This document shows positions 7,562 through 36,450 of a DNA stretch of 38,931 nt, in pieces. The notes under the pieces were generated by a model. The model was not told the origin of the DNA. It did no database searches and was given only the letters and a program-made list of their open reading frames with translations. Source of the stretch: a bacterium. GTDB lineage: Bacteria > UBA9089 > JASEGY01. The stretch spans positions 1-38,931 of the forward strand of contig JBFMHI010000011.1 in assembly GCA_040753085.1 (NCBI GenBank), in the 5' to 3' direction. Position numbers and translations under genes: made by a program. The number at the start of each line of letters is the position of its first letter. Within the stretch, counting starts at the first letter, position 1.

Positions 7562-7714
7562 ATTCCAATTATCAATTATTTGGTAAGGGTGAATTTTTGT
7601 AATTTTGTCTTAATTAAGCAGGTTTTGATACTAATTTTTAGATTTTTTTAAAAAACCCGAATTTTTTGTTGATTTAAGATAAAAGGGAGGCGGACGCATC
7701 CGCGAAATCATGCG

Positions 7715-7904
7715 GATGCAGAGACGGTTCGGGGCAGGTGACGCCTGCCGTTCCTCCAGCACCGCTGTAGAGGGCGATGTTTCAATCAGATGCAGAGACG
7801 GTTCGGGGCAGGTGACGCCTGCCGTTCCTCCAGCACCGCTGTAGAGGGCGATGTTTCAATCAGATGCAGAGACGGTTCGGGGCAGGTGATGCCTGCCGTT
7901 AGGT
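7715..7904. repeat. 74-bp tandem repeat (2.5 copies) ending in a GTTAGGT core
   Basis: Two identical 74-bp units (7715-7788, 7789-7862) and a truncated third (7863-7900, one mismatch). Each unit contains a hairpin GGCAGG/CCTGCC. In the third copy the sequence after GCCTGCC switches to GTTAGGT (7898-7904), which matches the attC R' consensus GTTRRRY and opens the cassette region. Because whole units are identical this is not a CRISPR. The stretch from 7562 to 7714 has only AT-rich DNA and an 8-bp GCATCCGC/GCGGATGC hairpin (about 7696-7719). Confidence 0.8.
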
Positions 7905-9839: not shown

Positions 9840-10072
9840 AAAGGAGTAAGCAAAACCTATGTAGGTCGCCGTTGATACAAATATTGTACCGTTTCCTGAC
9901 GCATGATGATGAAGAACAATATCAAGAGACGTATGCCGTGTTTCAGTGCTCCCGAGTGTATATCTCGAATACGGTGTTTTTGGAAACAGTGAGATGCTTG
10001 AGCTGTAGGGGGAAACTTCCATGTACAGTTCTTAGGGAGGAATGGGGCTGAAAGGCCCTTGACCTACCCGAT
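9840..10072 (+). mobile_element. Group II intron 3' remnant (domains V and VI)
   Basis: Domain V can be folded at 10000-10031: GAGCTGTA pairs with TACAGTTC (containing the AGC triad), with an upper stem GGGG/TTCC closed by GAAAC. A domain VI-like hairpin (GGGGCTGAAAGGCCC) and the 3' end CCTACCCGAT at about 10072 follow. No reverse transcriptase frame and no recognisable 5' domains remain, so the left border is arbitrary. The next gene starts 37 nt after the intron end. Confidence 0.6.
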
Positions 10073-16063: not shown

Positions 16064-16243
16064 CTACTCAGCCTCTATATAGTAGCCTTACCTAGCGAAA
16101 CCACAACATATTGTGTTTAGGTGTTTAAAAGTTAGCTAAAATTCCTAAAAAACGGCTTTCTATGCAACCTATAAAAGGAGACGAACCACAATATATTGTG
16201 TTCTGTAAGCTTCAAAATCAATATGTGGTGGCTGAGTAGTTAC
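16060..16243. mobile_element. 184-bp MITE-like insertion with perfect TIRs and 8-bp target duplication
   Basis: Perfect 14-bp terminal inverted repeats, GTAACTACTCAGCC (16060-16073) and GGCTGAGTAGTTAC (16230-16243), flanked by the direct repeat GAGTATTC (16052-16059 and 16244-16251). Inside are two near-identical palindromes, CACAACATATTGTG (16102-16115) and CACAATATATTGTG (16187-16200), 85 bp apart. No transposase. Removing the element and one target copy (192 bp) restores the reading frame, with HKEYS joining to KNAPYYP. It must have been mobilised in trans. Confidence 0.85.
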
Positions 16244-22040: not shown

Positions 22041-22084
22041 AGCCTTCAGTCTTCAGCCTTCAGCCTGTTTGCCTGAGTAGTTAC
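22041..22084 (-). repeat. GTAACTACTCAGGCA... dispersed repeat at the 3' end of the mlaC-like gene
   Basis: Read on the minus strand: GTAACTACTCAGGCA followed by AGGCTGAAGGCTGAAGAC and TGAAGGCT; matches 24291-24334 with only a few differences. It encodes the last residues (VTTQANRLKAED) and the stop of the gene, so it was inserted in or at the end of the coding sequence. Confidence 0.75.
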
Positions 22085-23104
22085 GTGTATCTTATGCAGG
22101 TCCTTTATTACTCGGATGAGATCGTCAAAGGTTTTATTCTTTAAAAATTCTTCATACTGCTTTCGATAGTCATCGATTAGACTTTCATTGTCGATAAGGA
22201 CATCATAAGCCTTCCAACCGTTGCTATACAGGGTGAGTCGATAGTCAATATGGATCTCCCGCTGGTTCTTGTAAATGATGGTGGTGGGAACAGTGGCTCC
22301 CTCATCTGTCACCACGGCCTTGCCGTAGTTGATTTCAATATCCTTGAAATACCTTTGGGCTCCGCTGATAGAGAAGGCAGTCAGAACCGGCGTGTAATAG
22401 TTTAAATATTCTTTCCTTTGCTTGGCTGAGGCTTTTTCCCAATATTTTCCCAGGGAGAGACGGCATTGTTTCTCAGGGTCCATAAAGGTCCGAAAACGAT
22501 CGTGATCTTTAAGGCGAATAGTCGCGATCAGCTTCTTGATGGTTGTTCCGGGATCATCTACCAATGGCGCACCCACTTCCTGGGTACCCGGGATGGCAGA
22601 TGGCGGAGAGGTATCCGGTGCCACTGAAACAAAGGTAGTGTCTGCGCCTGTGGTATCAGCTATTGGAGAAGACGGAATGGTATCAGATGTAATGGCTTGA
22701 GAAGAGGTGTCAGGTGTGAGGGCATTTACCGCTCTGGTATCGGTGGCCGTGGTGTCAGCTACGACGGTGACTGAAGTGGTACAGTACCAGATGGCGGATG
22801 GCGCACCCACTTCCTGGGTACCCGGGAGGATGGCGGATTGAGTATCGGCTATCTTGACACAGGTTACTCCGGCGGGAAGATTTATTACCTCTTCTGAAGA
22901 TAGTGATTTCACTTCCCAGGAATCCGAGGGCACACCCACTTCGTGGGTAGCCGGGATAGCGGGATTGAAAATCCGAAATCCCGGGTACCCACGAAGTGGG
23001 TGCGAAATCTGAAATGGAGAAGCACTCCATCCCCTTTCAACAGCTAAAAGCGAACCAAGTATAAGACCAACGGCGCCTAAGGTCTTCCATTTTTTGCTCA
23101 TCAT
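22046..23104 (-). CDS. MlaC/HpnM-like (Ttg2D) periplasmic lipid-binding protein with repeat-derived insertions
   Basis: 352 aa. Signal peptide (LGAVGLILGSLLAVERGWSA), then a ~150-residue low-complexity region containing four copies of a palindromic element, each in frame (three read IPGTQEVGAP-like, one reads HPLRGYPG), plus Thr/Asp/Ala-rich spacers. The MlaC/Ttg2D domain (PF05494-like) fills about 185-335: IRLKDHDRFRTFMDPEKQ, TYLNYYTPVL-type helix, SNGWKAYDVLIDNESLIDDYRKQYEEFL. Such proteins ferry lipids across the periplasm; the downstream MMPL transporter is the likely partner. ATG with SD AGGAGG, and a second ATG one codon later. The C-terminal 12 residues come from a dispersed repeat. 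Confidence 0.82.
   Translation of the reverse strand: MMSKKWKTLGAVGLILGSLLAVERGWSASPFQISHPLRGYPGFRIFNPAIPATHEVGVPSDSWEVKSLSSEEVINLPAGVTCVKIADTQSAILPGTQEVGAPSAIWYCTTSVTVVADTTATDTRAVNALTPDTSSQAITSDTIPSSPIADTTGADTTFVSVAPDTSPPSAIPGTQEVGAPLVDDPGTTIKKLIATIRLKDHDRFRTFMDPEKQCRLSLGKYWEKASAKQRKEYLNYYTPVLTAFSISGAQRYFKDIEINYGKAVVTDEGATVPTTIIYKNQREIHIDYRLTLYSNGWKAYDVLIDNESLIDDYRKQYEEFLKNKTFDDLIRVIKDLHKIHVTTQANRLKAED
22566..22597 (-). repeat. In-frame palindromic element, copy 1 (mlaC-like gene)
   Basis: Plus-strand core GCGCACCCACTTCCTGGGTA then CCCGGGAT. Encodes AIPGTQEVGAP at about residues 169-179 on the minus strand. Confidence 0.8.
22800..22835 (-). repeat. In-frame palindromic element, copy 2 (mlaC-like gene)
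   Basis: Same core as copy 1 with an extra GGA before ATGGCGG. Encodes ILPGTQEVGAP at about residues 90-101. Confidence 0.8.
22930..22962 (-). repeat. In-frame palindromic element, copy 3 (mlaC-like gene)
   Basis: CACACCCACTTCGTGGGTAG then CCGGGAT. Encodes AIPATHEVGVP at about residues 48-58. Faces copy 4, only 15 bp away, as an inverted pair. Confidence 0.8.
22978..23004 (+). repeat. In-frame palindromic element, copy 4, inverted (mlaC-like gene)
   Basis: ATCCCGGGTACCCACGAAGT then GGGTGCG, the reverse complement of the other copies. Encodes HPLRGYPG at about residues 34-42 through the opposite strand of the element. Confidence 0.8.
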
Positions 23105-23190
23105 TAATCCTCCTGTCTCTAAATTTCTTTCAGAAACTCTCTGATTTCCTTCTTCATAAATTACCTCTCCCTCTTTTTCACCGTATTGTC

Positions 23191-23459
23191 AAAAATTTTC
23201 GACCTGTATGGTTAGAAATTACAAGCAATTCTCCTCAAACCTGAAAGGTTTGAATTTTACATAACCACAGGTGAAACCTGCGGAAACGAAACATCTACCA
23301 CATCTCAACCCTGAAAGGGTTGAATTCTATGCAATGGATAATATTCGACCCTTGCAGGGTCGAGCGTTGCGGATGTATTTATCTTCCGTAGGCTATTTAA
23401 AATTTGACGCTTTCAGCGTCAATAGTCTACAACCTTAACCATACAGGTCGAAAAATTTT
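23191..23459. mobile_element. 269-bp element with ~24-bp TIRs and an array of five hairpins
   Basis: Left end TTTTCGACCTGTATGGTTA (to 23214) and right end TAACCATACAGGTCGAAAA (from 23436) are inverted repeats. Inside are five 19-bp palindromes: 23235-23253 (TCAAACCTGAAAGGTTTGA), 23265-23283, 23305-23323, 23345-23363 and 23404-23422. Their stems differ by paired changes while the centre stays CTGAAAG-like. No ORF. Sits between the mlaC-like gene and the CDP-alcohol phosphatidyltransferase gene; the short CGACCTGTACGG hairpin at about 27050-27076 is related. Confidence 0.7.
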
Positions 23460-23667
23460 CGTAAGTGTTCAGCTATTGTCTTCATTTTTTGTCCTCCTGT
23501 TCCTGATTTTAACATTTCCCCTCTTTGTTTACCCGTAATGAGTAGATAATGTTCTCAGCATATACGACGTTGCGACCGAAAGGAGCAATGTCCCACAGGG
23601 CAAGGGCGTTAGCCCGTTTTGACATTACCCTCTTTACCGCTTTACCGCCTAGACGGCTGGGCTATTT

Positions 23668-24273
23668 TTACTGGTGTTGGGATTGGCGTTTATTTTCCAT
23701 CAACTGCCACGAATGGTGCATACGTTGAAAGACAGTCAACCAGGTAAGAATAAATAGGACCGAGAGGATTATAGGGAAGTAACGTGGTCCGGCTATCCCC
23801 CCCAGGATAAGAAGAATAATCCTCTCAGACCGTTCCATCAATCCGACTTTGCACTCATGGTCAAGCCCTTCGGATCTGGCCTTGGTATAGCTGACCATAA
23901 GGGAACCGGCCAGGGTAAGGAACAGAAGCAGGATATGAACGGCTTCTCCTGCCCAGAGATAATAAAGGCATATTCCCAAAAAGACCATTATTTCCGAAAG
24001 TCTATCCAGACATGAGTCTAAGAAGGCCCCAAAGACTGAGCCTCGTCCACTGGATCGAGCCACCGCCCCATCAAAAAGATCGCACAAACCGGAAAGAGTG
24101 ACAAAGAGGGCGGCTACCTTGAAGTAACCCAAGGCAAAGGCAGCCGCCGACAGGAAGCTCATCCCTAACCCAATAAAGGTAATAATATTGGGTGAAACCC
24201 CTTTTTGAGACAGGAAATCAGTCAGGGGACTGATCCACTCGGTCACTTTCGGTTTTAATGCGGTTTCGATCAT
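23668..24273 (-). CDS. CDP-alcohol phosphatidyltransferase family protein
   Basis: 201 aa integral membrane enzyme, about six helices. The full catalytic signature D-x2-D-G-x2-A-R-x8-G-x3-D-x3-D is present at Asp65 to Asp90 (CDLFDGAVARSSGRGSVFGAFLDSCLDR). GLMERSERIILL after helix 4 resembles the phosphatidylinositol-phosphate synthase subgroup, so it may condense CDP-diacylglycerol with an inositol-type phosphate or glycerol-3-P; the substrate is not certain. ATG 24273 has an SD (GGAGAGG) that abuts the dispersed repeat at 24291. Confidence 0.88.
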   Translation of the reverse strand: MIETALKPKVTEWISPLTDFLSQKGVSPNIITFIGLGMSFLSAAAFALGYFKVAALFVTLSGLCDLFDGAVARSSGRGSVFGAFLDSCLDRLSEIMVFLGICLYYLWAGEAVHILLLFLTLAGSLMVSYTKARSEGLDHECKVGLMERSERIILLILGGIAGPRYFPIILSVLFILTWLTVFQRMHHSWQLMENKRQSQHQ

Positions 24274-24290
24274 TAGATTTAACCTCTCCT

Positions 24291-24334
24291 GTAACTACTC
24301 AGGCAGAGAGGCTGAAGGCTGAAGACTGAAGGCT
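24291..24334 (+). repeat. GTAACTACTCAGGCA... dispersed repeat
   Basis: Begins GTAACTACTCAGGCAGAG, continues with alternating GGCTGAAG/GACTGAAG units. Second copy at 22041-22084 on the other strand. Occupies the gap between secA and the phosphatidyltransferase gene. Confidence 0.75.
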
Positions 24335-24365
24335 ATTGAAAAATGGCACTCTTTTTTTATAACTA

Positions 24366-26951
24366 TTATCCACAACAGTGCTTATATTTCTTCCCGCTGC
24401 CGCAGGGGCATGGGTCATTCCGACCGATCTTGGCCAGCTTTCTTTCGCTCTTCTTTTCTGTTTGGGCCTCTGCTTTAGCTCCCTCGTGGACCGCCACTAA
24501 TTCTCTCGGCCTGGCTCTTCCCCTCAGGGTAGGGGCCTCTTCCGCCATTTGAACCCTGAAGATATATTCAACCACTTGCTCCTTCATCCGGAGGCTCAGG
24601 TGTTCAAACATCTGGTAGCTTTCGTGCTTATATTCAATCAAGGGGTCTCTCTGCCCATAGGCCCTGAGGCCTATTCCCTCCTTAAGGCTGTCCATGGCAT
24701 AGAGGTGATCCTTCCATAGATTGTCTATGACCGAAAGCATAAGGTATCGCTGCACCCGATTAAATTGTTCCGGCCCAAGCTCTCTTCTTCGCCCCTCATA
24801 GACCTCATTGACTCTCTCTAAGAGGTGACCAAAGAGTTGCCTGTGTTCAAGAGATTTAATCTCATCGGGCCTCATAGTCACACCAAAGGTTTGAGTTAGC
24901 CTGGTGCCAAGCCCTTCCACATCCCAATCATCAGGATGGTCGTCCGGCTTACAATAAGAGAGAATAATCTCTTCTAAGACATCTTCCACCATTTCCCGGA
25001 TATGGTCAGAGATATCAGATTCTTCAAGAACAAGGTCTCGTTCGTGGTAGATGACCTGCCGCTGTTGATTCATCACATCATCATATTCCAGGAGTCGCTT
25101 ACGGATGTCAAAGTTCTGGCCTTCGACCTGGCGCTGGGCCCTCTCTATGGCCTTGGTCACCCAGGGATGCTCGATTACTTCGCCTTCTTCAATACCGAGT
25201 TTATCCATCAAACTGGCGACCTTATCTGAGCCAAAGATTCGCATCAGGTCATCTTCCAGGGAGAGGTAAAATCGAGAAGATCCAGGATCACCCTGTCTGC
25301 CGGACCTCCCTCTAAGCTGGTTGTCAATCCTTCTGGCTTCATGTCTTTCGGTTCCAATGATGTGAAGGCCGCCCATGTCCGTGACCCCCTCTCCCAGGAC
25401 AATGTCTGTTCCCCGGCCGGCCATATTGGTGGCGATGGTTATGGCTCCAGGCTGACCGGCCTGGGCCACTATTTCGGCCTCCTTTTCGTGATACTTGGCA
25501 TTTAAGACCTGATGTCTGATACCCCGCTTTTTAAGGAGGTCAGAGAGTTTTTCTGATTTTTCCACCGAGATGGTGCCTACCAGAACCGGCCGCCTCAAGT
25601 GGGCCAATTCCACGATCTCATCGGTAATCGCCTTGAATTTTTCACGTTCTGTTTTGTAGACCACATCAGAATAATCTGTTCTGATCATGGGCATATTAGG
25701 AGGGATGACCACTACTTCTAACTTATAGATCTTATGAAATTCTTCGGCCTCGGTATCGGCTGTTCCGGTCATACCGGCCAGTTTTTCATACATTCTGAAA
25801 TAGTTCTGGAAGGTAATAGTGGCCAGGGTCTGATTTTCCTGGGCGATCCTGACCCCTTCCTTGGCCTCCAGGGCCTGATGCAGCCCTTCTGAATATCGCC
25901 GGCCCGGCATCAATCGGCCGGTGAATTCATCCACGATAACTACCTGTCCCTCTTTAACCAGGTAATCTCGATCCCGTTTAAATAAGGTATGGGCCTTGAG
26001 GGCCTGGTTGACGTGATGAGCGATTTCCATATTTCTGGGATCAAAGAGGTTGTCCAGCTTAAGCATCCTCTCCACCCTGGCTACCCCCTCTTCAGTCAAG
26101 GCCGCGGTGCGCATCTTCTCATCCACCTGGAAATCACTCTCAGCCTTCAACCCGGGGATAATCCGGTTGATTTTATAGTATTTATCCGTTGATTCCTCGG
26201 CTGGCCCCGAAATAATGAGAGGCGTCCGGGCTTCATCTATCAGGATGGAATCGACCTCATCCACAATGGCAAAGAAATGTTTCCGTTGGACCCGAAGACT
26301 TCGGTCAGGGACCATATTGTCCCGAAGATAGTCAAAGCCAAACTCGTTATTAGTGCCATAAGTGATATCAGCGGCGTAGGCTTCGCCTCTGTGTCCTACC
26401 GGACGAAGATGCCGGTAACGGGCATCACCCTTTTCGTGCTCCGGGTCGTATAGGAAGGCGGATTCGTGTTGGATGGTCCCCACTGAGAGACCCAACAGGT
26501 GGTAGATAGGCCCCATCCACTGGGTATCACGTTTGGCCAGATAATCATTGACCGTAACTACATGGACCCCCTCGCCCATAAGGGTATTTAGATAAACAGG
26601 CATAGTGGCCACTAAGGTCTTCCCCTCGCCAGTCTTCATTTCCGCTATTTTACCCTCGTGAAGGACAATCCCCCCCATAAGCTGGACATCGAATGGCCGC
26701 ATATTAACGGTGCGTTTAGCCGCCTCCCGAACAACCGCAAAGGCCTCCGGAAGGATTTCATCCAGGGTTTCTCCATCAGCCAGTTTTTGTTTAAAATAGG
26801 GCGTTTTAGCGGCAAGCTGTTGATTAGAAAGGCGGTTTATCTCCTCTTCCCATTCGTTTATTTCATCCACCATAGGCTGAAGTCGTTTTATATCTCTCTC
26901 TTGCTTGGTGCCAAAAATCTTGGCTAAAATAGCGTCAAACCACATTCCCAT
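24366..26951 (-). CDS. secA: Preprotein translocase ATPase SecA
   Basis: About 861 aa motor of the Sec pathway. Walker A MKTGEGKT near residue 107, [19 protein letters not shown] Walker B region, [24 protein letters not shown], and the C-terminal zinc-binding SEC-C tail [18 protein letters not shown] that contacts SecB and lipids. Length is typical. GTG 26957 is possible but falls inside the SD (AAGGGGTG); ATG 26951 or 26945 ([12 protein letters not shown]) are better placed. No operon partner: repeats isolate it on both sides. Confidence 0.97.
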
Positions 26952-26964
26952 TTTCACCCCTTAG

Positions 26965-27003
26965 GCTAAGAGTTGAGAAATGAGAGGTCTCTCAACTTTT
27001 AGC
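26965..27003. repeat. Inverted repeat upstream of secA
   Basis: GCTAAGAGTTGAGA (26965-26978) and TCTCAACTTTTAGC (26990-27003), one mismatch, 11-nt loop. Sits in the secA leader, next to the SD. Confidence 0.6.
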
Positions 27004-27083
27004 TCTCACTACTATACACTATTTGTTCCTTATAGTCAAATGAAAAGTTTTCGACCTGTACGGACACAGGTCAAACTTTTTAC

Positions 27084-27112
27084 TTGACTCATCCATTCTT
27101 ATAAACTATAAT
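27084..27112 (+). promoter_or_regulatory. Strong sigma70-type promoter
   Basis: TTGACT (27084-27089), 17-nt spacer, TATAAT (27107-27112). Reads toward the glycosyltransferase gene, but a 359-bp TIR element starts about 10 nt after the predicted start site. Confidence 0.75.
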
Positions 27113-27129
27113 GCGAAATTGAGGTGATA

Positions 27130-27488
27130 AAATCGTAACCGTTCAGCCACCAAGGCACGAAGACACAAAGGGGAAAAAGTATGTGTCTTAGAGAGCAGTA
27201 GAGCAATAGAGCAGCAGTTCTGGAACTTTCAGAAAAGTCTTTAACTACTGCGCTACTGCTCTGTTTTGAGCTATTAAGAAATAATCCTGTAACCGTTCAG
27301 CACATGATGCTGGATGCTCGATGCTCGATCCTCGATGCTCGATCTTCGATGCTGGTAAAGGATTCAGTATCCAGGATCGAGCATCCAGGATCGAGGATCG
27401 AGGTTGTGTCTTTGTGCCTTTGTGGCTGAGGACTTACAAAAAATCAGTGTTTCATCTGTGTCCATCCGTGGCTGAATAGTTACGATTT
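27130..27488. mobile_element. 359-bp composite palindromic element
   Basis: Outer inverted ends AAATCGTAACCGTTCAGCC (27130-27148) and GGCTGAATAGTTACGATTT (27470-27488). Nested inside are CCAAGGCACGAAGACACAAAG versus its inverted match CTTTGTGCCTTTGTGG, an AGAGCAGTAG/CTACTGCTCT pair, a second GTAACCGTTCAG start at about 27291, and a long GATGCTCGATCCTCGATGC / GATCGAGCATCCAGGATCG hairpin. No coding capacity. Looks like elements inserted within elements. Confidence 0.65.
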
Positions 27489-27528
27489 GCTGGTGTGGGC
27501 TCAATTTCGCGGTATGGCCATCCTGACA

Positions 27529-28662
27529 ATGGAGGAATTCCTGAAGGTAAATCTTCTTTATTTAATCACCGAGTTAAATGTAGGTGGGGCTGAAAAGGTC
27601 CTGGCCCGACTTGTGGCCGGGTTGAATAAAGAGCGCTATCGGGTTTTGGTCTGTTCTTTACAAAAAAAAGGGCCGGTGGCTGATGAGATAGAACGCAGCG
27701 GAATTAAGGTTGTTAGTTTGGATATGGAGGGAAAGCTGAATCTCAAGGCCCCGTTGAAACTTTTCTCCCTGCTGAAAAAAGAGAAAGTCGACATCCTCCA
27801 CTCTTATCTCTTTCATGCTAATCTCCTAGCGCGAATAGTCGGCTGCTTAGCCAAGACGCCCATTATCATCTCCTCAGAGAGAATTATGGAGATGGAGGGA
27901 CGACACCGGACAATTATAAATAGATTGACTGCCCCCTTAGCCGACTGTATCACAGCCAATTCTAATTCAGTCAGAGAATTTATCAGGTGCCGGATAGGCA
28001 TTGATCCCCAAAAATTAGTGACCATATATAATGGTCTGGATGTCTCGAATTTTCGGGAAAAGGAAGACAGGGCAGAGGTAAAGAAGAAATGGGGCATTGC
28101 TCCGGATAAAGTGGTGATCGGTTGTGTGGCCCGATTGGATCCCCAGAAAGGGCATGAATATCTTTTTAAAGCAGCCGTCAAGGTAGTGGATAGGCATCCC
28201 GAGGTGGTCTTCTTACTGGTAGGCTATGGCCCGCTCAGGAAAAAATTAGAAGATATGGCGGAAGAATTAGGATTGGCCTCAAAGGTTATCTTCACCGGGG
28301 CCTGTAATGATGTCCCCCAGATGCTTTCGATAATGGACATCTTTGTTCTTCCCTCACTCTACGAAGGCTTTCCTAATGCGGTGCTTGAAGCCATGGCGGC
28401 TTCAAGGCCGGTAATTGCTACCTCAGTGGCCGGCACTCCCGAAATAGTAATGCACCACCAGACAGGCATCCTGGTGCCGAGAGCAAATCCGGAAGCACTG
28501 GCTGAGGCCGTCAACACGCTCCTTCAAAATCCGGAAAGGGCCAGGGAAATGGGACAGGCTGGTCGGTTACGGGTGGAAGATTATTTTAGTCTAGAGAAAA
28601 TGGTCAAAAAAACAGAGGAATTGTATGAAAAGCTAATCGAAAAAAAGCGGGGAGCATTATGA
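27529..28662 (+). CDS. Family 4 glycosyltransferase
   Basis: About 377 aa GT-B enzyme. N-terminal VNLLYLITELNVGGAEKVLARLVAGL is the acceptor-side signature, PIIISSERIM and IYNGLD(V)SNF mark the linker, VARLDPQKGHEYLFKA and PSLYEGFPNAVLEAMAASRPVIA (E-x7-E) the donor site. Likely transfers a hexose to an envelope polysaccharide or lipid carrier. ATG 27529 is preferred over an ATG/TTG in the preceding repeat, although its SD is poor. Ends in ATGA overlap with the flippase-like gene. Confidence 0.85.
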   Translation: MEEFLKVNLLYLITELNVGGAEKVLARLVAGLNKERYRVLVCSLQKKGPVADEIERSGIKVVSLDMEGKLNLKAPLKLFSLLKKEKVDILHSYLFHANLLARIVGCLAKTPIIISSERIMEMEGRHRTIINRLTAPLADCITANSNSVREFIRCRIGIDPQKLVTIYNGLDVSNFREKEDRAEVKKKWGIAPDKVVIGCVARLDPQKGHEYLFKAAVKVVDRHPEVVFLLVGYGPLRKKLEDMAEELGLASKVIFTGACNDVPQMLSIMDIFVLPSLYEGFPNAVLEAMAASRPVIATSVAGTPEIVMHHQTGILVPRANPEALAEAVNTLLQNPERAREMGQAGRLRVEDYFSLEKMVKKTEELYEKLIEKKRGAL

Positions 28663-29654
28663 AAAACTACAAATTCTGGGTCAGCATTCTACTTAGCATT
28701 TTTTTCCTCTGGCTGGCCGTGCGAGGGGTCGACCTTGATGAGATGATAGAAGCGATTGCTAAGGTTAGTTGGGTTTATATTATTCCTATCGGAGTGGTCA
28801 GCTTAAGCACTTTTATTCTCCGGGCCTTCCGGTGGAGGTACCTGCTCAGTTATGAAAAACACATCAGGCTTCACTCACTTTTTTCCTATACCATTATTGG
28901 GTTTATGGCCAACAATGTCTTTCCTTTACGGATTGGCGAGCTGGTTCGGGCTTACATTATTGGCAAAAAGGAAGAAATCTCTAAGATCCGCTCTTTAGCC
29001 ACTATTATCATGGAGCGAATATTCGATGGCCTATCTTTACTTTTTTTTCTAACCCTGGTTCTGCTTTACCACCCTGGTTTTCCTGATTGGGTAAAAGAAA
29101 TGGGTCTGATGCTGGCCCCTGTCTTCTTTCTTGCTTTTGGCGGGCTTATTGTATTGGAGTGGCATCAAGACTGGTTCCTGAAGTTTACCCATTGGCTGAC
29201 GGGACATATTTCACCTAAACTGTCAAGTAGAGTAGTGGGCAGTTTACAGTCCTTTATCCACGGACTGGCTATCTTACGTCGAATAGATCATCTTCTGATA
29301 ACTTTTTTTCTCTCTTTAGCCCTTTGGGTAGTTTATGCCGGTATGTTCTACCTGGCCCTTCAGGCTTTTCATATCCATCATTTACCCTTGTATGCTTCTT
29401 TGTTCGTTCTGACAGTGACTGCCTTTGGGGTGATGCTCCCTTCTTCACCTGGTTTTATCGGCCCCTTTCAGTATTTTTGCGCCAAGGCCCTTCTTCTGAT
29501 GGGGCTTAAAGATAAAAGCCTGGCTTTAAGCTATGCCTTCTTCCTTCACGCTATTCAGTATGTCCTTATTACTTTAGTTGGTTTGGGCTATCTTTGGAAG
29601 GAAAATCTCTCCTTTAGTGATCTGAAGAAGGCCAAGGAAACGAATGAAGTTTAA
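28659..29654 (+). CDS. Lysylphosphatidylglycerol-synthase-TM / UPF0104-type membrane protein
   Basis: 331 aa with about 8 TM helices, matching the flippase-like LPG_synthase_TM (AglD) family: RAFRWRYLLSYEKHIRLHSLFSYTIIGFMANNVFPLRIGELVRAYIIGKKEEISKIRSLATIIMERIFDGL near the N-terminus and PSSPGFIGPFQYF near the end are the conserved segments. Family members transport or modify lipids or lipid-linked sugars. Coupled to the upstream glycosyltransferase by a 4-nt overlap, which suggests one glycolipid or polysaccharide pathway. The group II intron begins just after its stop. Confidence 0.85.
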   Translation: MKNYKFWVSILLSIFFLWLAVRGVDLDEMIEAIAKVSWVYIIPIGVVSLSTFILRAFRWRYLLSYEKHIRLHSLFSYTIIGFMANNVFPLRIGELVRAYIIGKKEEISKIRSLATIIMERIFDGLSLLFFLTLVLLYHPGFPDWVKEMGLMLAPVFFLAFGGLIVLEWHQDWFLKFTHWLTGHISPKLSSRVVGSLQSFIHGLAILRRIDHLLITFFLSLALWVVYAGMFYLALQAFHIHHLPLYASLFVLTVTAFGVMLPSSPGFIGPFQYFCAKALLLMGLKDKSLALSYAFFLHAIQYVLITLVGLGYLWKENLSFSDLKKAKETNEV

Positions 29655-29659
29655 GGCAG

Positions 29660-30372
29660 GAGGAGGTTAAGGCCGGTTACAGAAGTTACCGACGGAAAAC
29701 CTGGGCGTCGGGGAAGGGATTCCAGCAACCCCGGCGAGCCTGGAAAGCAGGGACACAAATCTCTGGAATCAGCCTGCCGAACGACAACGTTGAAGCGTAC
29801 ACAGGGCACCACACAGACCGTAGGGAAGACCGCACTTCCCAAAGTTTGATACAGCCTCGTTAAAGAGTGAGGGGGCGCAAGTCTCAAGAGCAGATGGCGA
29901 TGGTTCCTTCGCAAGCTCAGGACATGGTTAACGGGCCAGAAGCTACCACAGAGAGAGCGCTTTGGTGAGTTCTCCGAGGGTCTGCCGGGGTTCACTTTAG
30001 AGCGTGGTATGTGTGGAGAGAAGCATCAGGGACTTGGGATGCCCCAGCGGTTCCTGGGCTGGTACATGGGTTTAGGAGAGTCAGAAACCACTGGGGAGTC
30101 AGATCAGCCCATAGTACTCAGAGAACGGTAGGGCCGTTCACAGGGGGAAGGGGCTGACAGTCATTCGTAGCCTGCATAGGCAACATTGGCCGGACAAGGA
30201 GGGCCGGGAGTCAATGTCCACTTTCTTGCAGGGAATAGCGAAGAAGGCTCGGGCTGGGCGGGTCTACTAGGGCCGAAGGCGGAAGCAAGGATAACTGAAG
30301 AGCCCGATGCGGGAAAACTGCATGCCGGGATCTGTGCGGGGGCGGTCAGGTAACTAGCCGTCCTACCGCGAT
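29660..30372 (+). mobile_element. Degenerate group II intron lacking its reverse transcriptase
   Basis: Domain V folds at 30300-30332 (GAGCCCG...CGGGATC lower stem, TGCGG/CTGCA upper stem with GAAA), domain VI and the end CCTACCGCGAT at 30372 follow. Upstream are structured domain I-III-like sequences (from about 29665) and only the first codons of the maturase: ESDQPIVLRER then stop (30096-30131), and SMSTFLQGIAKKARAG in another frame to a stop at 30270. Everything from the RT catalytic domain onward is deleted, joining the ORF start almost directly to domain V. The 5' boundary is uncertain; no clear GTGYG start. Confidence 0.7.
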
Positions 30373-30387
30373 GGCTGTCAAAAAATA
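30326..30387 (+). repeat. 62-bp direct repeat, copy 1 (intron 3' end plus exon)
   Basis: Covers the 3' strand of domain V, domain VI and 15 nt beyond the intron (GGCTGTCAAAAAATA). Identical to 31027-31088, exactly 701 bp away. Confidence 0.9.
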
Positions 30388-30406
30388 AACTGTGGGGGTG
30401 ATTGTT

Positions 30407-30655
30407 ATGCCACGATTGACAATGGAAGGGGTGTATCATAAGGGGATTATTATTCCCCAAGAAGAGGTGCCATATAATTCGGATATGCGAGTCTTGATTA
30501 CATTTACTAAAAAAATTCCAAGGAGGGAACTTTATGCTTACACTCCCCAAATTCAGAAGGCATTAGCAAAAGCAGAGGCAAACTATAAGGCAGGTAAATT
30601 CAAGGAATATAAAGATGCGGATACCTTATTCAAGGATTTGAATAATGCTGCTTGA
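30407..30655 (+). CDS. Antitoxin of a RelBE/ParDE-type module
   Basis: 82 aa. N-terminal beta strands MPRLTMEGVYHKGIIIPQEEV...MRVLITF resemble the AF2212/DUF104-like antitoxin start; the C-terminal half (ALAKAEANYKAGKFKEYKDADTLFKDLN) is a RelB-like toxin-binding helix. ATG 30407 has SD-like GGGGGTG (30394-30400); a GTG at 30392 is less likely. Overlaps the toxin gene by 11 nt. Begins 35 nt after the group II intron end. Confidence 0.75.
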   Translation: MPRLTMEGVYHKGIIIPQEEVPYNSDMRVLITFTKKIPRRELYAYTPQIQKALAKAEANYKAGKFKEYKDADTLFKDLNNAA

Positions 30656-30914
30656 AAGAAAAATTGCCAAAGATGATAATTTTGATAAGTATTATGACGC
30701 TTTGCCAGAATACATCAAAAGAAAGTTTGAGAAGCAAGTAAGGTTTTTGTTGAAGAACCCAAAACATCCATCGCTGAAGATTCATCGATTTGAAAGTATT
30801 AAAGGATTGTGGGAATTTTATGTAGATGATTACTATCGATGTTTGTTTTCAATCGAAAGTAACACTTACCTTCTTAAATGGGTTGGAACCCATCTGCAGA
30901 TGGAGAGGAAGTAG
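30645..30914 (+). CDS. RelE/ParE-family toxin
   Basis: 89 aa, typical size. Helix-helix N-terminus (FDKYYDALPEYIKRKFEKQVRFLLKNPKHPSLKIHRF) and beta-sheet end GLWEFYVDDYYRCLFSIESNTYLLKWVGTHLQMERK are characteristic of YafQ/RelE-like ribosome-dependent mRNA interferases. The catalytic His/Arg residues appear present (R in YYRCLF, H in GTHLQ). Coupled to the antitoxin. Followed by a truncated attC, so probably acquired as an integron cassette. Confidence 0.85.
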   Translation: MLLERKIAKDDNFDKYYDALPEYIKRKFEKQVRFLLKNPKHPSLKIHRFESIKGLWEFYVDDYYRCLFSIESNTYLLKWVGTHLQMERK

Positions 30915-31001
30915 TGTTTTTTAAAAAAGGGATAAAAAGCGTTAATTTAGCTAGATAAGTAAGTATCTTAAGACACGAGAAAATTGCAAAGCGGACTTTT
31001 T

Positions 31002-31026
31002 GCCTAACCAATCGCTGAAGATACGT
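31002..31026 (+). other. Truncated attC (left half) abutting the intron-derived repeat
   Basis: GCCTAAC (31002-31008) is a perfect R''; AATCGCTGAAG follows as L''-like sequence, after which the site is replaced by copy 2 of the 62-bp intron-end repeat at 31027. Preceding GGACTTTTTG matches the context before the attC at 32513 (GGACTTTTGT). Confidence 0.6.
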
Positions 31027-31088
31027 CGGGATCTGTGCGGGGGCGGTCAGGTAACTAGCCGTCCTACCGCGATGGCTGTCAAAAAATA
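31027..31088 (+). repeat. 62-bp direct repeat, copy 2 (intron 3' end plus exon)
   Basis: Identical to 30326-30387. The rest of the intron is missing here. Confidence 0.9.
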
Positions 31089-31110
31089 GCGACTGGAGAT
31101 TGGAAAGGAT

Positions 31111-31440
31111 ATGAAAGCAAAGGCAATTCCTGACGATGTGAGAAAAAGTGTTGAAGAAATCGTCGAGCGATTCAACCGCGAGAACTTGAGGAGAGACGAC
31201 TGCTACTACTCAGTGCGGTTCAGAGGGAGATGCGCTTATCTTGACCGATACGCCTATGGCAAGGTGGGGCCAATATGCTGCCTCAGGTATACAGGAAAGA
31301 TGGATGGCTGGGAATTCGCCATATTCAAGTGGAGCAGTGAAACATACGATCCAAAAGAGTGGATGTTCCCAGGCATTAGCCTTGTAGATGGAACCATTGA
31401 AGGGGCAATGAAGGCTGGATTGAAAGCATATCCGGTATAA
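31111..31440 (+). CDS. Hypothetical cassette protein
   Basis: 109 aa soluble protein of unknown function: helical start (DDVRKSVEEIVERFNRENL), then a beta-rich core with CYYSVRFRGRCAYLDRYAYGKVGPICCLRYTG and WEFAIFKWSSETYDPKEWMFPG, and a final helix (DGTIEGAMKAGLKAYP). The pattern is one I associate with hypothetical proteins in integron arrays. SD AAAGGA before ATG. Its stop codon overlaps the attC R'' sequence. No signal peptide. Confidence 0.65.
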   Translation: MKAKAIPDDVRKSVEEIVERFNRENLRRDDCYYSVRFRGRCAYLDRYAYGKVGPICCLRYTGKMDGWEFAIFKWSSETYDPKEWMFPGISLVDGTIEGAMKAGLKAYPV

Positions 31441-31562
31441 CAACATGATGGAGCCGACCGCGCATCAGGCATACGATGTTTGGGCAGGCATTGTGGGATT
31501 GGCTCTCCGCCTTTGGCAGTTTTTCCATAGTTCTACGCGGCGGCTCATCGCGGGCGTTAGAT
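31435..31562 (+). other. Integron attC recombination site 5 (128 bp)
   Basis: GTATAAC (31435-31441) and GTTAGAT (31556-31562). GATGgAGCC pairs with GGCTCATC, leaving one extrahelical G, followed by CGCG-rich pairing. Canonical orientation downstream of the hypothetical gene. Confidence 0.78.
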
Positions 31563-31743
31563 GGTTCGAGAATTGAGACATGTTGACATGCTCCGCTCGC
31601 CCAAAACAACACCGCTTGGTGCTTGAGGCGAGTAGGAGTATTTGAGGAGGTGGGAGAAATGGGGCACTGAAAAGTACAAAACCAGAAGAGAAAGGGAACG
31701 GTGATAGACTATGCCAAAATTATACAACAAAGGAGTGATTTAA

Positions 31744-32007
31744 ATGAGAAAATCAGTTATCCATGATAAAATAATGGAAGAAATTAAATTTATTCCAGAA
31801 GATAAACTGTCAGAGATATACGATGTTATTCATTATTTTTGGATAGGTTTGCAAAAATCTAAAGTGAATATTAACCAGATAATGCAATTTGCCGGTTGCT
31901 GGAATGATATTCCTGAAGATGCATTTAATGATTTTTTAGAAGAAACCAGACAACGTAGAAGTCAGGCTTTTTCAAGGAGACGAAGCGGTGGAACCAGTAT
32001 TAGTTGA
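31744..32007 (+). CDS. vapB: VapB-type antitoxin (DUF2281-like)
   Basis: 87 aa. Helical protein: KSVIHDKIMEEIKFIPEDKLSEIYDVIHYFWIGLQ is typical of DUF2281 antitoxins, and the C-terminal part (GCWNDIPEDAFNDFLEETRQRRSQAFSRRR) matches the toxin-binding 'aGsW.d..e..fe.f..ei..rR' motif. SD AAAGGAG before ATG 31744. Overlaps the PIN toxin gene by 20 nt. Confidence 0.82.
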   Translation: MRKSVIHDKIMEEIKFIPEDKLSEIYDVIHYFWIGLQKSKVNINQIMQFAGCWNDIPEDAFNDFLEETRQRRSQAFSRRRSGGTSIS

Positions 32008-32395
32008 TACAGACATCCTATCCCTGTTCTTTAGAAACCAGGATAATGTTGTCTCTAATTTCAAAAAATATCTTAACCGGTACGAAAAAATAAATCTGAG
32101 TATCATTACCTACTATGAAATTCTTAGTGGTTTAAAACACAGAGACGCATTGAAACAACTAGACTCATTTCTGGAGTTTACAAAGCATAACACTATTCTA
32201 TCGTTAACTAAAGAATCAGTTATGATTTCATCGGATTTATACAGTAATTTGCGAAAAGCAGGAAGACCGATCGATGATATTGATATCATTATTGCAGGTA
32301 TTGCTTTGTCAAACAATCTTGTTCTTGTGACCAATAATGAAGAACATTTCAGAAATATCAAAGGCTTAGAAATTTTGAATTGGAGTAAAAAATAA
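31988..32395 (+). CDS. vapC: PIN-domain toxin VapC
   Basis: 135 aa endoribonuclease of the PIN family. Acidic active-site residues are in place: Asp7 in VLVDTDILS, Glu44 in TYYEILSGL, Asp96-97 and Asp99 in RPIDDIDIIIAGIA, and LVTNNEEHFRNIKGLEILNW closes the domain. GTG start at 31988 with SD AAGGAG (31974-31979) inside the antitoxin gene. The module is followed by an attC, as in chromosomal integrons that stabilise arrays with toxin-antitoxin cassettes. Confidence 0.93.
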   Translation: MEPVLVDTDILSLFFRNQDNVVSNFKKYLNRYEKINLSIITYYEILSGLKHRDALKQLDSFLEFTKHNTILSLTKESVMISSDLYSNLRKAGRPIDDIDIIIAGIALSNNLVLVTNNEEHFRNIKGLEILNWSKK

Positions 32396-32512
32396 GGCGA
32401 CTTTGTCTAACACAGGTTAAAAGATTGACATCGGAACGTGAGTTAGGGCAGGTCTTGATTATGGAACACAGAAATAAGAAGAAAAGAAAAAAGACGGCGA
32501 AGTGGGACTTTT

Positions 32513-32646
32513 GTCTAACCAGTCGCTGCACCTGACAGTGGGGGCTGGGGTGTGTTTGAGATAGTTTTGTGATTTATCTAGGTTTTACCTTGCTAATAAA
32601 GTTTAGTGGTAATTCTCCCCGCAGCAGGTGAGCGTGCTCGTTAGTG
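32513..32646 (+). other. Integron attC recombination site 6 (134 bp)
   Basis: GTCTAAC (32513-32519) and GTTAGTG (32640-32646, off consensus at the last bases). CGCTgCACCTG pairs with CAGGTGAGCG with one extrahelical G. Large central region, within the known attC size range. Confidence 0.7.
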
Positions 32647-32689
32647 GTAGATGAGACTGAATTTGTTCATGCGGAGAGAAATATAGAAA

Positions 32690-32711
32690 GAGGTTTTGGG
32701 ATAGGCTCTTA
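32690..32711 (-). repeat. Partial TAAGAGCCTATCCC element at the 3' end of the PBP2 gene
   Basis: On the minus strand TAAGAGCCTATCCCAAAACC (from 32711), the same end as at 7267 and 13217. Its first three bases are the stop codon of the PBP2 gene. Confidence 0.7.
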
Positions 32712-34532
32712 GGGGCTGGATGGCTGAGTAGTAGCTACCTTCAAGTTTGAGGTGGAGTTTTCAGTAAAGTATGTTTCCATTATCTTTCTGGCGATCGGGG
32801 CAGCGGCGGCACCGCCGTGACCACCGTGTTCGACCAGCACAGAGACAGCTAATTCAGGTTTATCTACCGGCGCAAAGCACATGAACCAGGCATGATCTTC
32901 TCCATGCGGGTTCTGGGCCGTGCCCGTCTTGCCACCGATCCTTAAGTCCTTGATTTTGGCCTGCCAGCCTGTACCTCGCGAGACCACCCCCTCCAGGGCA
33001 TTGTGAAGCAAAGATAAGGTAGTTCGCTTTAGAGAAAATTTCCGCAACAACTGAGGTTCAAAAGAATTTATTACCTTTCCGTCAGGACTATGGATGGCCT
33101 TCACTACCAACGGCTTATATATCCTCCCCCCGTTGACTACCGCCGCCATGAGGTTAGCCAATTGAATAGGGGTAGTCAAGAGATAGCCCTGGCCAATACT
33201 AAAATTAACCGTTTCTCCCAGGTGCCATCGTTCACCTAAAGTCTTTTTTTTCCAGGCTGGATCAGGGACAAGACCCGGCTTCTCATGAGGAAAGGAAATT
33301 TGAGAAAACTGACCAAGCCCAAAATTTCTGGCCATTTCAGCCATTCTTTCCGCGCCTACCTTGAGTCCTAACTGATAGAAGTAGACATTACAGGAATGGA
33401 TAATAGCTTCTTCCAGGTTCTTCCAGCCATGTCCCTGTTCCTTCCAGCAGGCATATCTCCTGCCTAAATAGTAGCTTCCTCCGCAGTAAAAGGTTTCTGA
33501 AGGCTTAACCAGATTATTTTCCAGGGCAGCCGAAGCCACCACTATCTTGAACTGAGATCCGGGAGAATATTGAGCAGAAATGGCCCGGTTTAGCAAGGGA
33601 TAACGGGGATCAGAAAAGAAATCTTTAATCTTGATCTTCTTCTGGGGGCTGACAAACACATTTGGGTCAAAAGCCGGTTTACTGGCCATAGCCAGAATTC
33701 CCCCAGTATTAACATCCAGAACAACCACTGCCCCGCGGCTGTCGCCTAAGGCCTCCTCAGCCGTACGCTGCAGGGCATAATCGATAGTCAAGGTTAAATT
33801 GTCTCCCAGAGTGGGGTCTTTTCTGGAGATGGTCCCAAGTCTACGCCCCTTTACGTCTACCTCTACTTGTTCTACTCCATTTTCCCCCCTCAGGTAATCG
33901 TCAAACTCTCTTTCTACCCCCGCCTTTCCAATCAAATCCCCGGAACGATACCCTTTCTGCCTTAGTTCCTCCAATTCCGCCCCGCTTACCTCCCCCAGAT
34001 AACCGATGATGTGCGCGGCCAGATCACCGTAGACATAGTCCCTTCGGGGGCTTACCTGAATAATTACCCCCGGCAGGTCTATCTTTCTTTCAGCCACCTG
34101 GGTCATAGTCTTTCGGTCAACGTCCTGGATAATTAAGGCCGGATTAAAAGGGCAATGGGCTTCTTTAGACAGGCGCTCTCTTATCTCGGTGGGAGAAAGA
34201 TTCAATATCCGACTTAAGCCAGTGATGGTGCGTTCTAATATCTGGGGAGAAAGCCCAAGCTGGATAACAGAAATATCAAAGGAAGGGCGATTTCTAACCA
34301 GCACCGTGCCTTTTCGGTCAAGGATCCTACCCCGGGGAGCCGTGACAGGAATGAATTGAATCCGGTTCTCCTCTGATTCTTTTTTGAACCCTCCTCCTTG
34401 AAGGATTTGGACCTGATAAAGACGAAGCACAACCACGGAAAAGAAGAAGGCAAATATGGTGCCTACTATTATTATTTTCCTCCGGGCAAGCTTTATATCT
34501 TCCCTGGTAGTATTTGAATAAATCATGGGCAC
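32709..34532 (-). CDS. mrdA: Penicillin-binding protein 2
   Basis: 607 aa class B transpeptidase of the elongasome, anchored by one N-terminal TM helix (IIIVGTIFAFFFSVVVLRLYQ). PBP dimerisation domain starts at APRGRILDRKG; the transpeptidase domain has SxxK S326-Q-F-K329, SCN at 380-382 and KTG at 535-537. All catalytic residues present and length typical. Start ATG 34532, with ATG 34526 two codons in. The C-terminal VATTQPSSP and stop are supplied by dispersed repeat sequence. RodA is not adjacent. Confidence 0.95.
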   Translation of the reverse strand: MPMIYSNTTREDIKLARRKIIIVGTIFAFFFSVVVLRLYQVQILQGGGFKKESEENRIQFIPVTAPRGRILDRKGTVLVRNRPSFDISVIQLGLSPQILERTITGLSRILNLSPTEIRERLSKEAHCPFNPALIIQDVDRKTMTQVAERKIDLPGVIIQVSPRRDYVYGDLAAHIIGYLGEVSGAELEELRQKGYRSGDLIGKAGVEREFDDYLRGENGVEQVEVDVKGRRLGTISRKDPTLGDNLTLTIDYALQRTAEEALGDSRGAVVVLDVNTGGILAMASKPAFDPNVFVSPQKKIKIKDFFSDPRYPLLNRAISAQYSPGSQFKIVVASAALENNLVKPSETFYCGGSYYLGRRYACWKEQGHGWKNLEEAIIHSCNVYFYQLGLKVGAERMAEMARNFGLGQFSQISFPHEKPGLVPDPAWKKKTLGERWHLGETVNFSIGQGYLLTTPIQLANLMAAVVNGGRIYKPLVVKAIHSPDGKVINSFEPQLLRKFSLKRTTLSLLHNALEGVVSRGTGWQAKIKDLRIGGKTGTAQNPHGEDHAWFMCFAPVDKPELAVSVLVEHGGHGGAAAAPIARKIMETYFTENSTSNLKVATTQPSSP

Positions 34533-34572
34533 TTTTTTGTCGCCTCACTCGAGGCTCGATCATCCAGCCTTA

Positions 34573-36450
34573 TCACGATAGGCAAGCGGCTATCCGAGCT
34601 AAGGATTGACTTAGCCTGAAGGCCGCTCTTTGCAAATGTTGGTAACACCAGAGCGACCTTCTGGCCGTTCTGAGGGCTCCCTCTTCTTGAATGGCCGCAT
34701 CGTCAATGTAAGCCATATAGCTCAGCCCACTTAGCGGGTCCCTCAGTCGAATGGCCTCATCGATCTTATCCAGTCGGCTAATAATAGGATTGATTTCTGA
34801 CTGGCGGTCCTGGCCCGCCTTTAAGATCTGATAGAGATTTCTGGAGAGGCTAACTCCTTCCTCAGCCAACTGGGCAATCTGGGTAAATCCAATTCCTATC
34901 TGGGCTAATGTCTTGCTCAAATTAAAGTCAGTAGTTACGGCAGAGCGACTGGTAATTCGATCAAGAGTCGGATTTAATTCGATAGCCAACCTTTTGGCCA
35001 CCATAGTCAGGATTTCTTTCTCAGAGATAATATCTGTGCCGTCTTTCATCCCTTGCCAGATATTGAGGAAACAATAACGCAGGATCTCCCTGATTACCTC
35101 TGATGGATTAGTTTCTCCCTTATTCAAGGGAAAGTAGGCGAAAGATCTGGTCGGTTCTTCATCCCCGGAATAGAATAGATCGATCTGCTGGAAAGATAAG
35201 GCGGTGATAGCTTCCTTGGCTTTGTCCCCATCCCTTTCCAGTAAGATTCGGGCGGCTGAAATAACTGCCTCCGGCGTGATTAACTCCATGCAGGTGTGTT
35301 CTGGACAGGTAACCTTAGCACATCCCCGGCAGGGAACCTTAGCCTGAAGGACGAGATGGCCCGGGCCGTAAGGCCCTACCCAGTTTGGTCCGGCTATTAC
35401 TACAACCGGTGTGCCAACTGCTCCGGCAATGTGGGCTGGGCCAGTGTCTCCGGAAATGAACAATCGGCAGTTAGCTAACCAGCCGGTTAGTTCTCTGAGG
35501 CTGGTTTGACCGGCCAGATTCAGGGGGGATGGCGCACCCACTTCGTGGGTACCCGGGATGGCGGAATTCCGCACCTGAGCCGAAATCTGGGCGGCCCGGT
35601 CCTGATCATCTTTGCCCCCGAAGATAACTACCTGCGCCCCATAGGCTTCAGCTAAAAGGTCTACCAACCGGGCAAAATATTCCACCTTCCAGCGTCGAGA
35701 AGGATAATTAGCCCCAGGATGTATCCCAATCAATTTCGGATTTTCCATGCCGCCTTCTGCATTCCGCCTGCCGCCTTCCGATATAGTTGTTCTCCGCTTA
35801 GAAGGATTGACATCAGCCATCAGCAGGTGAATCTCGACCGAACTCAGGGGATTAAGGTGGCATCGTTCCGGATTGGTCGTAATCCAATATTTGTAATGTA
35901 TCCAGGGATGTCCTAAAACTACAGGCTGGCTGTTATCGGTCACAGTTAAGCCCCAAACATCTTTATTAGTAATCAATTTAGTCAGGAAGGCGCTTCGGGG
36001 GGAGGTATGCAGGTTAATGACCAGATCAAATTGCTCGGCATAAACAGGCTCAACCCAGGCCATTAGTTCTCTTATGGTTTCATCTACCTTACCGGCGATC
36101 AGTTTCTTGGCCCATTTGGCTTTTTCAAAGACAATAACTTTGTCCAGGTTAGGATCATCCCTGACCAATTCAGCCGGCGCTTCCTCGGTCAGGAAACATA
36201 TCTTTGCCTCTTTGAACTTTTCTCGAAGCCCCCAAAAAACCGGGGTGGTGTAAACCACATCCCCAATAGAGGAAAGTTGAATAAGCAGGATACTCTCCGG
36301 CTCTCTTGTCTGAGAGGTTAAAAGATACTTAAGGCCTACCCCTTTAGCCCAATTTCTTTGCAGGATAGATTGGGCCAGTAATTGGTATAGTTTCAAGTTC
36401 TCGGCACCCGCTGGCCGGTCGTCGAGTTTCGAGTTAAGATCACCTGTCAC
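34573..36450 (-). CDS. Family 9 glycosyltransferase (heptosyltransferase-like) with extra C-terminal domain
   Basis: 625 aa. The GT9 part (about 45-420) resembles ADP-heptose:LPS heptosyltransferases: ILLIQLSSIGDVVYTTPVFWGLR, LIGIHPGANYPSRRWKVEYFARLVDLL, SGDTGPAHIAGAVGTPVVVIAGP, plus a Cys cluster CRGCAKVTCPEHTC. About 200 further helical residues follow, without a recognised family. Residues about 297-306 (AIPGTHEVGAP) are an in-frame palindromic element that also occurs in the mlaC-like gene; EGGRRNAEGGM at about 230 looks like another repeat-derived insertion. GTG start with no good alternative; its first codons lie in a CGAAACTCGA repeat. Fits the gmhA/gmhB pathway. Confidence 0.82.
   Translation of the reverse strand: MTGDLNSKLDDRPAGAENLKLYQLLAQSILQRNWAKGVGLKYLLTSQTREPESILLIQLSSIGDVVYTTPVFWGLREKFKEAKICFLTEEAPAELVRDDPNLDKVIVFEKAKWAKKLIAGKVDETIRELMAWVEPVYAEQFDLVINLHTSPRSAFLTKLITNKDVWGLTVTDNSQPVVLGHPWIHYKYWITTNPERCHLNPLSSVEIHLLMADVNPSKRRTTISEGGRRNAEGGMENPKLIGIHPGANYPSRRWKVEYFARLVDLLAEAYGAQVVIFGGKDDQDRAAQISAQVRNSAIPGTHEVGAPSPLNLAGQTSLRELTGWLANCRLFISGDTGPAHIAGAVGTPVVVIAGPNWVGPYGPGHLVLQAKVPCRGCAKVTCPEHTCMELITPEAVISAARILLERDGDKAKEAITALSFQQIDLFYSGDEEPTRSFAYFPLNKGETNPSEVIREILRYCFLNIWQGMKDGTDIISEKEILTMVAKRLAIELNPTLDRITSRSAVTTDFNLSKTLAQIGIGFTQIAQLAEEGVSLSRNLYQILKAGQDRQSEINPIISRLDKIDEAIRLRDPLSGLSYMAYIDDAAIQEEGALRTARRSLWCYQHLQRAAFRLSQSLARIAACLS
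35531..35562 (-). repeat. In-frame palindromic element, copy 5 (GT9 gene)
   Basis: GCGCACCCACTTCGTGGGTA then CCCGGGATGGCGG on the plus strand. Encodes AIPGTHEVGAP in a loop just before NLAGQTSLREL. Confidence 0.85.

Follow-up and report, generated by a model that had tools for sequence, protein, structure and literature searches.

Protein-coding genes of an uncultured bacterium of the GTDB lineage UBA9089 (JASEGY01) contain copies of a 22-nucleotide (nt) hairpin, CCGGGTACCCACGAAGTGGGTG, flanked on both sides by tandem heptamers of the form CGNNATC. Five copies lie in contig JBFMHI010000011.1 of assembly GCA_040753085.1, a stretch of 38,931 nt analysed at its full length and called the window here; four are in a gene of the MlaC family (mlaC) and one is in a glycosyltransferase family 9 (GT9) gene. 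We judge it fairly likely that hairpin and heptamers form a two-layer repeat system in coding DNA, in which the hairpin is copied from one heptamer array to another by short homology and selection keeps the reading frame.

The pattern GCACCCACTTCGTGGGTACC, allowing up to three mismatches, matched the window at 22569+, 22803+, 22932+, 22984− and 35534+, against a chance expectation of 0 (100 dinucleotide shuffles). An earlier note on this DNA, made from the letters alone, had described the same five copies and had them all in frame, with even the inverted one open. Each was found where it had been placed, open and in frame in its host gene, as follows.

22046..23104, minus strand: host gene, MlaC family (Pfam PF05494, E 1.3e-24, residues 203-334).
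22557..22602, minus strand: copy 1, in mlaC; 46-nt block with the hairpin at 22570-22591; peptide SAIPGTQEVGAP.
22791..22836, minus strand: copy 2, in mlaC; hairpin at 22804-22825; reads ILPGTQEVGAPSAI.
22920..22965, minus strand: copy 3, in mlaC; hairpin at 22933-22954; reads AIPATHEVGVPS.
22970..23015, plus strand: copy 4, in mlaC and inverted relative to the gene; hairpin at 22981-23002; reads QISHPLRGYPGFRI.
34573..36450, minus strand: host gene, GT9 (Pfam PF01075, E 1.5e-27, residues 137-385).
35522..35567, minus strand: copy 5, in the GT9 gene; hairpin at 35535-35556; reads NSAIPGTHEVGAPSP.

All four mlaC copies follow the signal peptide region and precede the MlaC domain. Copy 2 carries 3 extra nt in its left arm (coding sense), and copies 3 and 4 form a doublet with cores 54 nt apart. 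That even the inverted copy is open follows from the consensus, which is free of stops in all six frames, a property retained by 47 of the 86 copies in the genome. The GT9 copy falls within the domain-model match, at a loop-like alignment gap. Here the peptide proved to be an insertion, as had been supposed: it is missing from GT9 homologues in other families of the phylum, most of which are shorter here by exactly 12 residues (36 nt). The solved structure 3tov, compared with the GT9 protein, likewise has 12 residues fewer at copy 5. None of these homologues in the phylum carried the same peptide at the same position. A second probable repeat insert occurs in the GT9 gene at about 35748-35784 (peptide EGGRRNAEGGMEN), with other, degenerate heptamers, where homologues differ strongly. 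A search of the window for known RNA families returned tRNAs and one group II intron match only, none of them at the copies.

We searched the source genome (3.05 Mb in 250 contigs, 97% complete) with a 16-nt core at up to two mismatches and obtained 88 matches, compared with 3 for a reversed control pattern. Two matches were dropped, one without the element context (C13:26771) and one truncated by a contig end (C176), leaving 86 copies. These were read in 52 genome stretches, 434 kb including the window, which covered every core match. Genes were called with a simple program of our own, which gave a coding fraction of 0.83; 76 of the 86 copies lay inside called genes, 51 in number, and most of the 10 outside were within 40 nt of a gene end. 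With each gene counted once, the orientation was the same in about 45 of 51 (p = 2e-8), and within this main orientation the frame reading IPGTHEVGA was preferred (about 29 genes versus 11 and 6; p = 6e-5). The other two frames were used by 22 of the 65 main-orientation copies, and 11 copies were inverted. The coding habit suggested by the five window copies holds genome-wide; the element is neither mostly intergenic nor random in frame. Copies were also enriched at N termini: 18 genes had one within their first 30 codons, where 5.4 were expected.

The hosts are unrelated and conserved. All 20 host proteins tested had Pfam matches: MlaC, GT9, TatD, QueC, a response regulator/histidine kinase, an Opp-type ABC ATPase, GT2, ArgJ, NAD kinase (NadK), MurJ, an HhH-GPD glycosylase, Mfd, a VipB tail-sheath protein, NfeD, an M16 peptidase, GH3, BadF/BcrAD, an Omp85/PD40 protein, an HdrA-like protein and a metallophosphatase. 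In NadK and TatD there is no start codon from the insert to the first conserved residues, so on sequence grounds these inserts must be translated. We compared 13 host genes with those of a sister species of the same genus, the metagenome-assembled genome (MAG) Yes70-08 (JASEGY01). Ratios of nonsynonymous to synonymous substitution (dN/dS) were 0.09-0.26, with dS of 0.56-0.92; the hosts are thus working genes under selection. Both genomes are metagenome assemblies and the gene caller was our own, so an artefact of assembly or gene calling has to be weighed. However, the MAG of the second species, an independent assembly, has the same element in other genes, and neither the uniform Pfam matches nor the necessary translation through the NadK and TatD inserts fits an artefact, which we consider extremely improbable.

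Aligned in the majority gene-reading sense, the copies share a conserved block of 46 nt, AATCCGNNATC-CCGGGTACCCACGAAGTGGGTG-CGNNATCCGNNAT, with a sharp drop in conservation at either end. The palindromic core of the earlier note thus exists, but it measures 22 nt rather than about 30 bp, within a conserved block of 46 nt, and the CGNNATC heptamers, absent from that account, are the larger part of the phenomenon. The core folds into a 7-bp stem with a GAA loop (−8.4 kcal/mol; z = −1.2 versus shuffled), and the hairpin with its flanks reaches −16.1 kcal/mol (z = −2.7). Stem pairs are kept in 83-100% of copies, base changes being one-sided, and 26 of the roughly 86 copies are identical over all 22 nt.

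Position and polarity tie the heptamers to the hairpin. Their NN is mostly AA, CC or CA, and the NN to the left and right of a hairpin agree at 81% of positions (shuffled, 45% ± 4). A heptamer of matching polarity (at least four of the five fixed bases) stands on at least one side of 78 of the 86 copies and on both sides of 64, and hairpins of reversed polarity relative to the heptamers numbered 0 of 86. Close tandem copies are spaced by 22, 29 or 36 nt, that is, 22+7n. Inverted doublets occur at three places (window 22933/22987, C64:4140/4193 and C222:2200/2254), with a spacing of 53-54 nt. We rejected the idea that insertion duplicates a target site of constant length. Because the sister species has heptamers there without the hairpin, the match between the left and right heptamers is better explained if both belong to a single array. 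At one locus (L061; C69:7001-7436), a distinct subfamily is represented by the hairpin variant ACCCCCGAAGTGGGGG, which occurs together with CGAAACT heptamers in a tandemly repeated 87-nt unit within a very large open frame.

Comparison with the sister species was possible at 17 sites in 14 genes. Heptamers were present at all 17, including the four mlaC sites, and a hairpin at the same site was present in two, ArgJ and BadF/BcrAD only; in GH3 the sister-species hairpin is at a neighbouring array. Even in regions picked for such sites, just 6% of positions lie near a two-unit array, so the agreement at 17 of 17 is not due to chance. Each mlaC copy coincides with a hairpin-free array in the orthologue: heptamers only, SPQSAIRNLKSIDDP, at copy 1; QSAIRNPQSAIW at copy 2; the heptamer run CGCCATCAGCAATCTGCAATC at copy 3; and, at the inverted copy 4, an array that is likewise inverted, GATTTCGGATTTCGGATTTCGGATTTC. 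By these alignments, the heptamer arrays that house the hairpin are in-frame insertions in their own right.

Net length differences between orthologues kept the frame every time. They amount to 36 nt (22+2×7) in NadK and the M16 peptidase and to 15 nt (22−7) in the Opp-type ABC gene, and the GT9 insert is 36 nt long here versus 42 nt (six heptamers) in the sister species. In BadF/BcrAD the hairpin lies one heptamer further along in one species with the total length unchanged, and the same element is therefore read in different frames in the two species. In the sister MAG, each of the 20 distinct copies that were read is spanned by an open frame, and in 19 cases that frame has at least 230 amino acids. 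Many copies are identical across the two species despite the dS of 0.56-0.92, which points to recent copying or homogenisation.

The strong preference for one frame and one orientation, together with the N-terminal enrichment, could indicate that the IPGTHEVGA peptide or an mRNA hairpin is useful to the cell, for example as a common tag or in translation control at the start codon. However, the hosts are unrelated, the orthologue is mostly without the peptide, the BadF/BcrAD hairpin is read in different frames, and a third or so of the main-orientation copies (the 22 of 65) use other frames, besides the 11 that are inverted. The orientation bias is, moreover, already present in hairpin-free CGNNATC heptamers in genes, 71 of 85 having one orientation; the hairpin shares it because its polarity relative to the heptamers is fixed, and for the heptamers it may reflect tolerance for a soluble peptide. 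We therefore regard a selected function as very unlikely. Phase variation, with 7-nt gains and losses near start codons toggling genes and the hairpin as a by-product, seems more improbable still. Units of 7 nt do shift the frame, the enrichment in the first 30 codons would suit such switching, and N-terminal simple repeats are tied to phase variation in other bacteria in the discussion section of PMC4692102. Yet the hosts include housekeeping proteins (NadK, MurJ, Mfd, ArgJ), the arrays are imperfect with mixed NN, and the consensus is open in six frames. Orthologue pairs are also in frame in both species, with the exception of one in-frame stop in the M16 gene, upstream of its likely start.

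The two-layer reading would work as follows. Short CGNNATC arrays would form the first layer, lying within genes and favouring linkers, loops and the vicinity of the start codon. A 7-nt unit does not fit a whole number of codons, so an array would survive only if its length as a whole brought the sequence back into frame. With few stops in any of its six frames, the heptamer would let surviving arrays simply add a peptide (for example, NPQSAIR). These arrays would then be landing sites for the second layer, the 22-nt hairpin, which would come to lie exactly between two heptamers with constant polarity. The likeliest route would be copying from array to array by short-homology recombination or template switching, the flanking heptamers providing the homology, after which purifying selection would eliminate events that fail to restore the frame. 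We infer here a gain of the hairpin and not its loss, movement by homology, and no benefit to the cell.

We favour short-homology copying because no gene for the alternatives was found: the source genome, 97% complete, had no match to Y1_Tnp (PF01797, the transposase of the repetitive extragenic palindromic (REP) type, or RAYT) and none to the reverse transcriptase family RVT_1 (PF00078). Transposition in trans, by a genome-encoded transposase able to recognise the hairpin and insert it at the boundaries of heptamers, in the manner proposed for RAYT enzymes and REP elements, would account for the precise position and the fixed polarity; the three inverted doublets, uniformly spaced at 53-54 nt, recall the REP doublets known as REPINs, and Y1_Tnp genes do occur in the sister species (1 match) and in two genomes of other families. 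It nevertheless appears unlikely, given the lack of Y1_Tnp in the source genome and the orthologue net differences of 15 and 36 nt, which fit 22+7n and not a fixed insertion length. REP elements are, in addition, extragenic, with 14 of 1,067 16-mers overlapping genes (PMC3116915), as the hairpin copies are not. Movement through an RNA intermediate, as suggested for cyanobacterial small dispersed repeats, is distinctly less probable than transposition. It could draw on the size class, hairpin and heptamer context shared with those repeats, on the location of copies in transcribed regions and on the group II intron RNA match in the window (9998-10072; RF00029, 45.5 bits), but the source genome has no reverse transcriptase, though the sister species has some, and the element lacks an RNA-like end.

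Several points weigh against array-to-array copying as we propose it. Movement of the hairpin is deduced from comparison and not seen directly, and in the absence of an array-bearing outgroup, a sister species that had lost the hairpin through deletions from one heptamer to another would look the same. The heptamers could in part be scars, and a transposase of a family other than those searched may act in trans. Placement in genes rests on our simple gene caller. The fold of the 22-mer alone is just modestly better than that of shuffled sequence (z = −1.2, or −2.7 with flanks), and a search for stem covariation among the copies found one-sided changes only, with no compensatory ones.

Heptamer arrays are more widespread than the hairpin. 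In the 434 kb read there are 172 arrays of period 7 versus 4 in shuffled DNA, and period 6 and period 8 give 7 and 27, respectively. CGNNATC arrays lie mostly inside genes (85 of 115, with 30 outside), and the AGCATCG and AAGGCTG heptamers of the source genome are mainly intergenic. A GATGCTC array of the mainly intergenic type lies just upstream of the gene at 27487 in the window (27306-27402) and forms a large inverted repeat. Among GTDB r220 genomes, the only other carrier of an exact 25-mer of the element is the sister MAG Yes70-08. The 25-mer is thus restricted to this genus, whose members and relatives are not annotated as cyanobacterial. As to a viral origin, an exact 24-mer was absent from 2.9 million viral contigs.

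Runs of four heptamer units occurred patchily, in 17 of 290 genomes, including two unrelated ones labelled G233 (38 matches) and G194 (7 matches). In G194, and in two genomes from another family of the phylum (G013 and G018; array loci L173-L176), several of the arrays fall within open frames of about 390-1,200 amino acids. Some facing arrays in G194 (L165-L169) form palindromes, and the arrays in G233 (L160-L164) look mainly intergenic. The wider class of in-gene CGNNATC arrays is undescribed, to our knowledge. We tentatively raise the possibility that it is a widespread repeat class adding in-frame peptides in several unrelated phyla, and that in this genus the 22-nt hairpin evolved to use its arrays as pre-tested harmless sites. 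Other families of the phylum have a related hairpin, GACCCACTTCGTGGGT, with the same stem but GGGGC flanks and no heptamers; it was not counted as the element. It was seen as GGGGC-ACCCACGAAGTGGGTC in three other families (L127-L141), at one locus (L138) in tandem with a shortened form, and may represent an older form related to the 22-nt element.

In its heptamers, the anatomy appears closest to the small dispersed repeats (SDRs) that Elhai and colleagues reportedly described in Nostoc and its relatives. SDRs are hairpins of 21-27 nt that often stand in tandem heptamers, form nested or tandem copies and have no gene of their own. Measured against this description, the hairpin element, 22 nt by conservation, falls inside their size range, and a heptamer of fixed polarity adjoins at least one side of 78 of its 86 copies. 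Unlike SDRs, however, which are not known outside a cyanobacterial subgroup, it occurs in a host not annotated as cyanobacterial and mostly in protein genes, in frame. Heptameric simple repeats of the form GGGNATC (short tandemly repeated repetitive sequences, STRR) are over-represented between genes and under-represented in coding sequence in Xanthomonas and Nostoc, and no detailed literature on heptameric repeats existed as of 2015 (PMC4692102). The present arrays resemble them as tandem 7-nt units dispersed through the genome, but CGNNATC is mostly in genes.

The earlier note had likened the element to Rickettsia palindromic elements (RPEs). The likeness stands insofar as RPEs and their Wolbachia equivalents are also palindromic repeats found in frame, and apparently tolerated, in many unrelated conserved proteins. 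It fails in build: RPEs are 105-146 nt with long stem-loops and terminal inverted repeats, according to the summary of Ogata et al. 2000 in PMC2229807, whereas the present element is 22 nt (46 nt with flanks), has one 7-bp stem, is tied to heptamers rather than set in naive coding sequence, and comes from an unrelated lineage. REP elements and REPINs share with it short palindromes, single copies and inverted doublets, and high copy number, but 76 of the 86 copies here are in genes and the source genome has no Y1 transposase match. Palindromes in the mitochondrial coding sequences of Nematomorpha are inverted repeats within functional protein genes as well, but both their arms encode conserved protein sequence (PMC6649704), whereas the hairpin element is an added peptide.

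The window holds other repeats. The motif GTAACTACTCAG adjoins gene ends at 22041-22084, 24291-24334 and 16051-16252, partly fused to GCCTTCA heptamers, and similar motifs (CTGAACGGTTACA) lie upstream of the TatD and QueC start codons. Identical 62-nt direct repeats are found at 30326-30387 and 31027-31088, 701 nt apart, and a 74-nt tandem repeat of about 2.6 copies, 91-96% alike, is at 7708-7900.

Insertions of repeats into coding sequence are well described in Rickettsia, and we found no report of any this small or from this bacterial group. Since the discovery of the Rickettsia elements, it has been an open question how selfish DNA spreads in coding sequence without killing its host. The system described here offers a testable answer, namely that the insert enters sites that already tolerate an in-frame repeat; such sites occur with and without the hairpin in the two related genomes. 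A practical caution follows for metagenomic proteins, in which peptides such as NPQSAIR or AIPGTHEVGA should be taken as repeat insertions and not as conserved motifs. The hairpin element lengthens many housekeeping proteins and may rank among the smallest dispersed repeats described.

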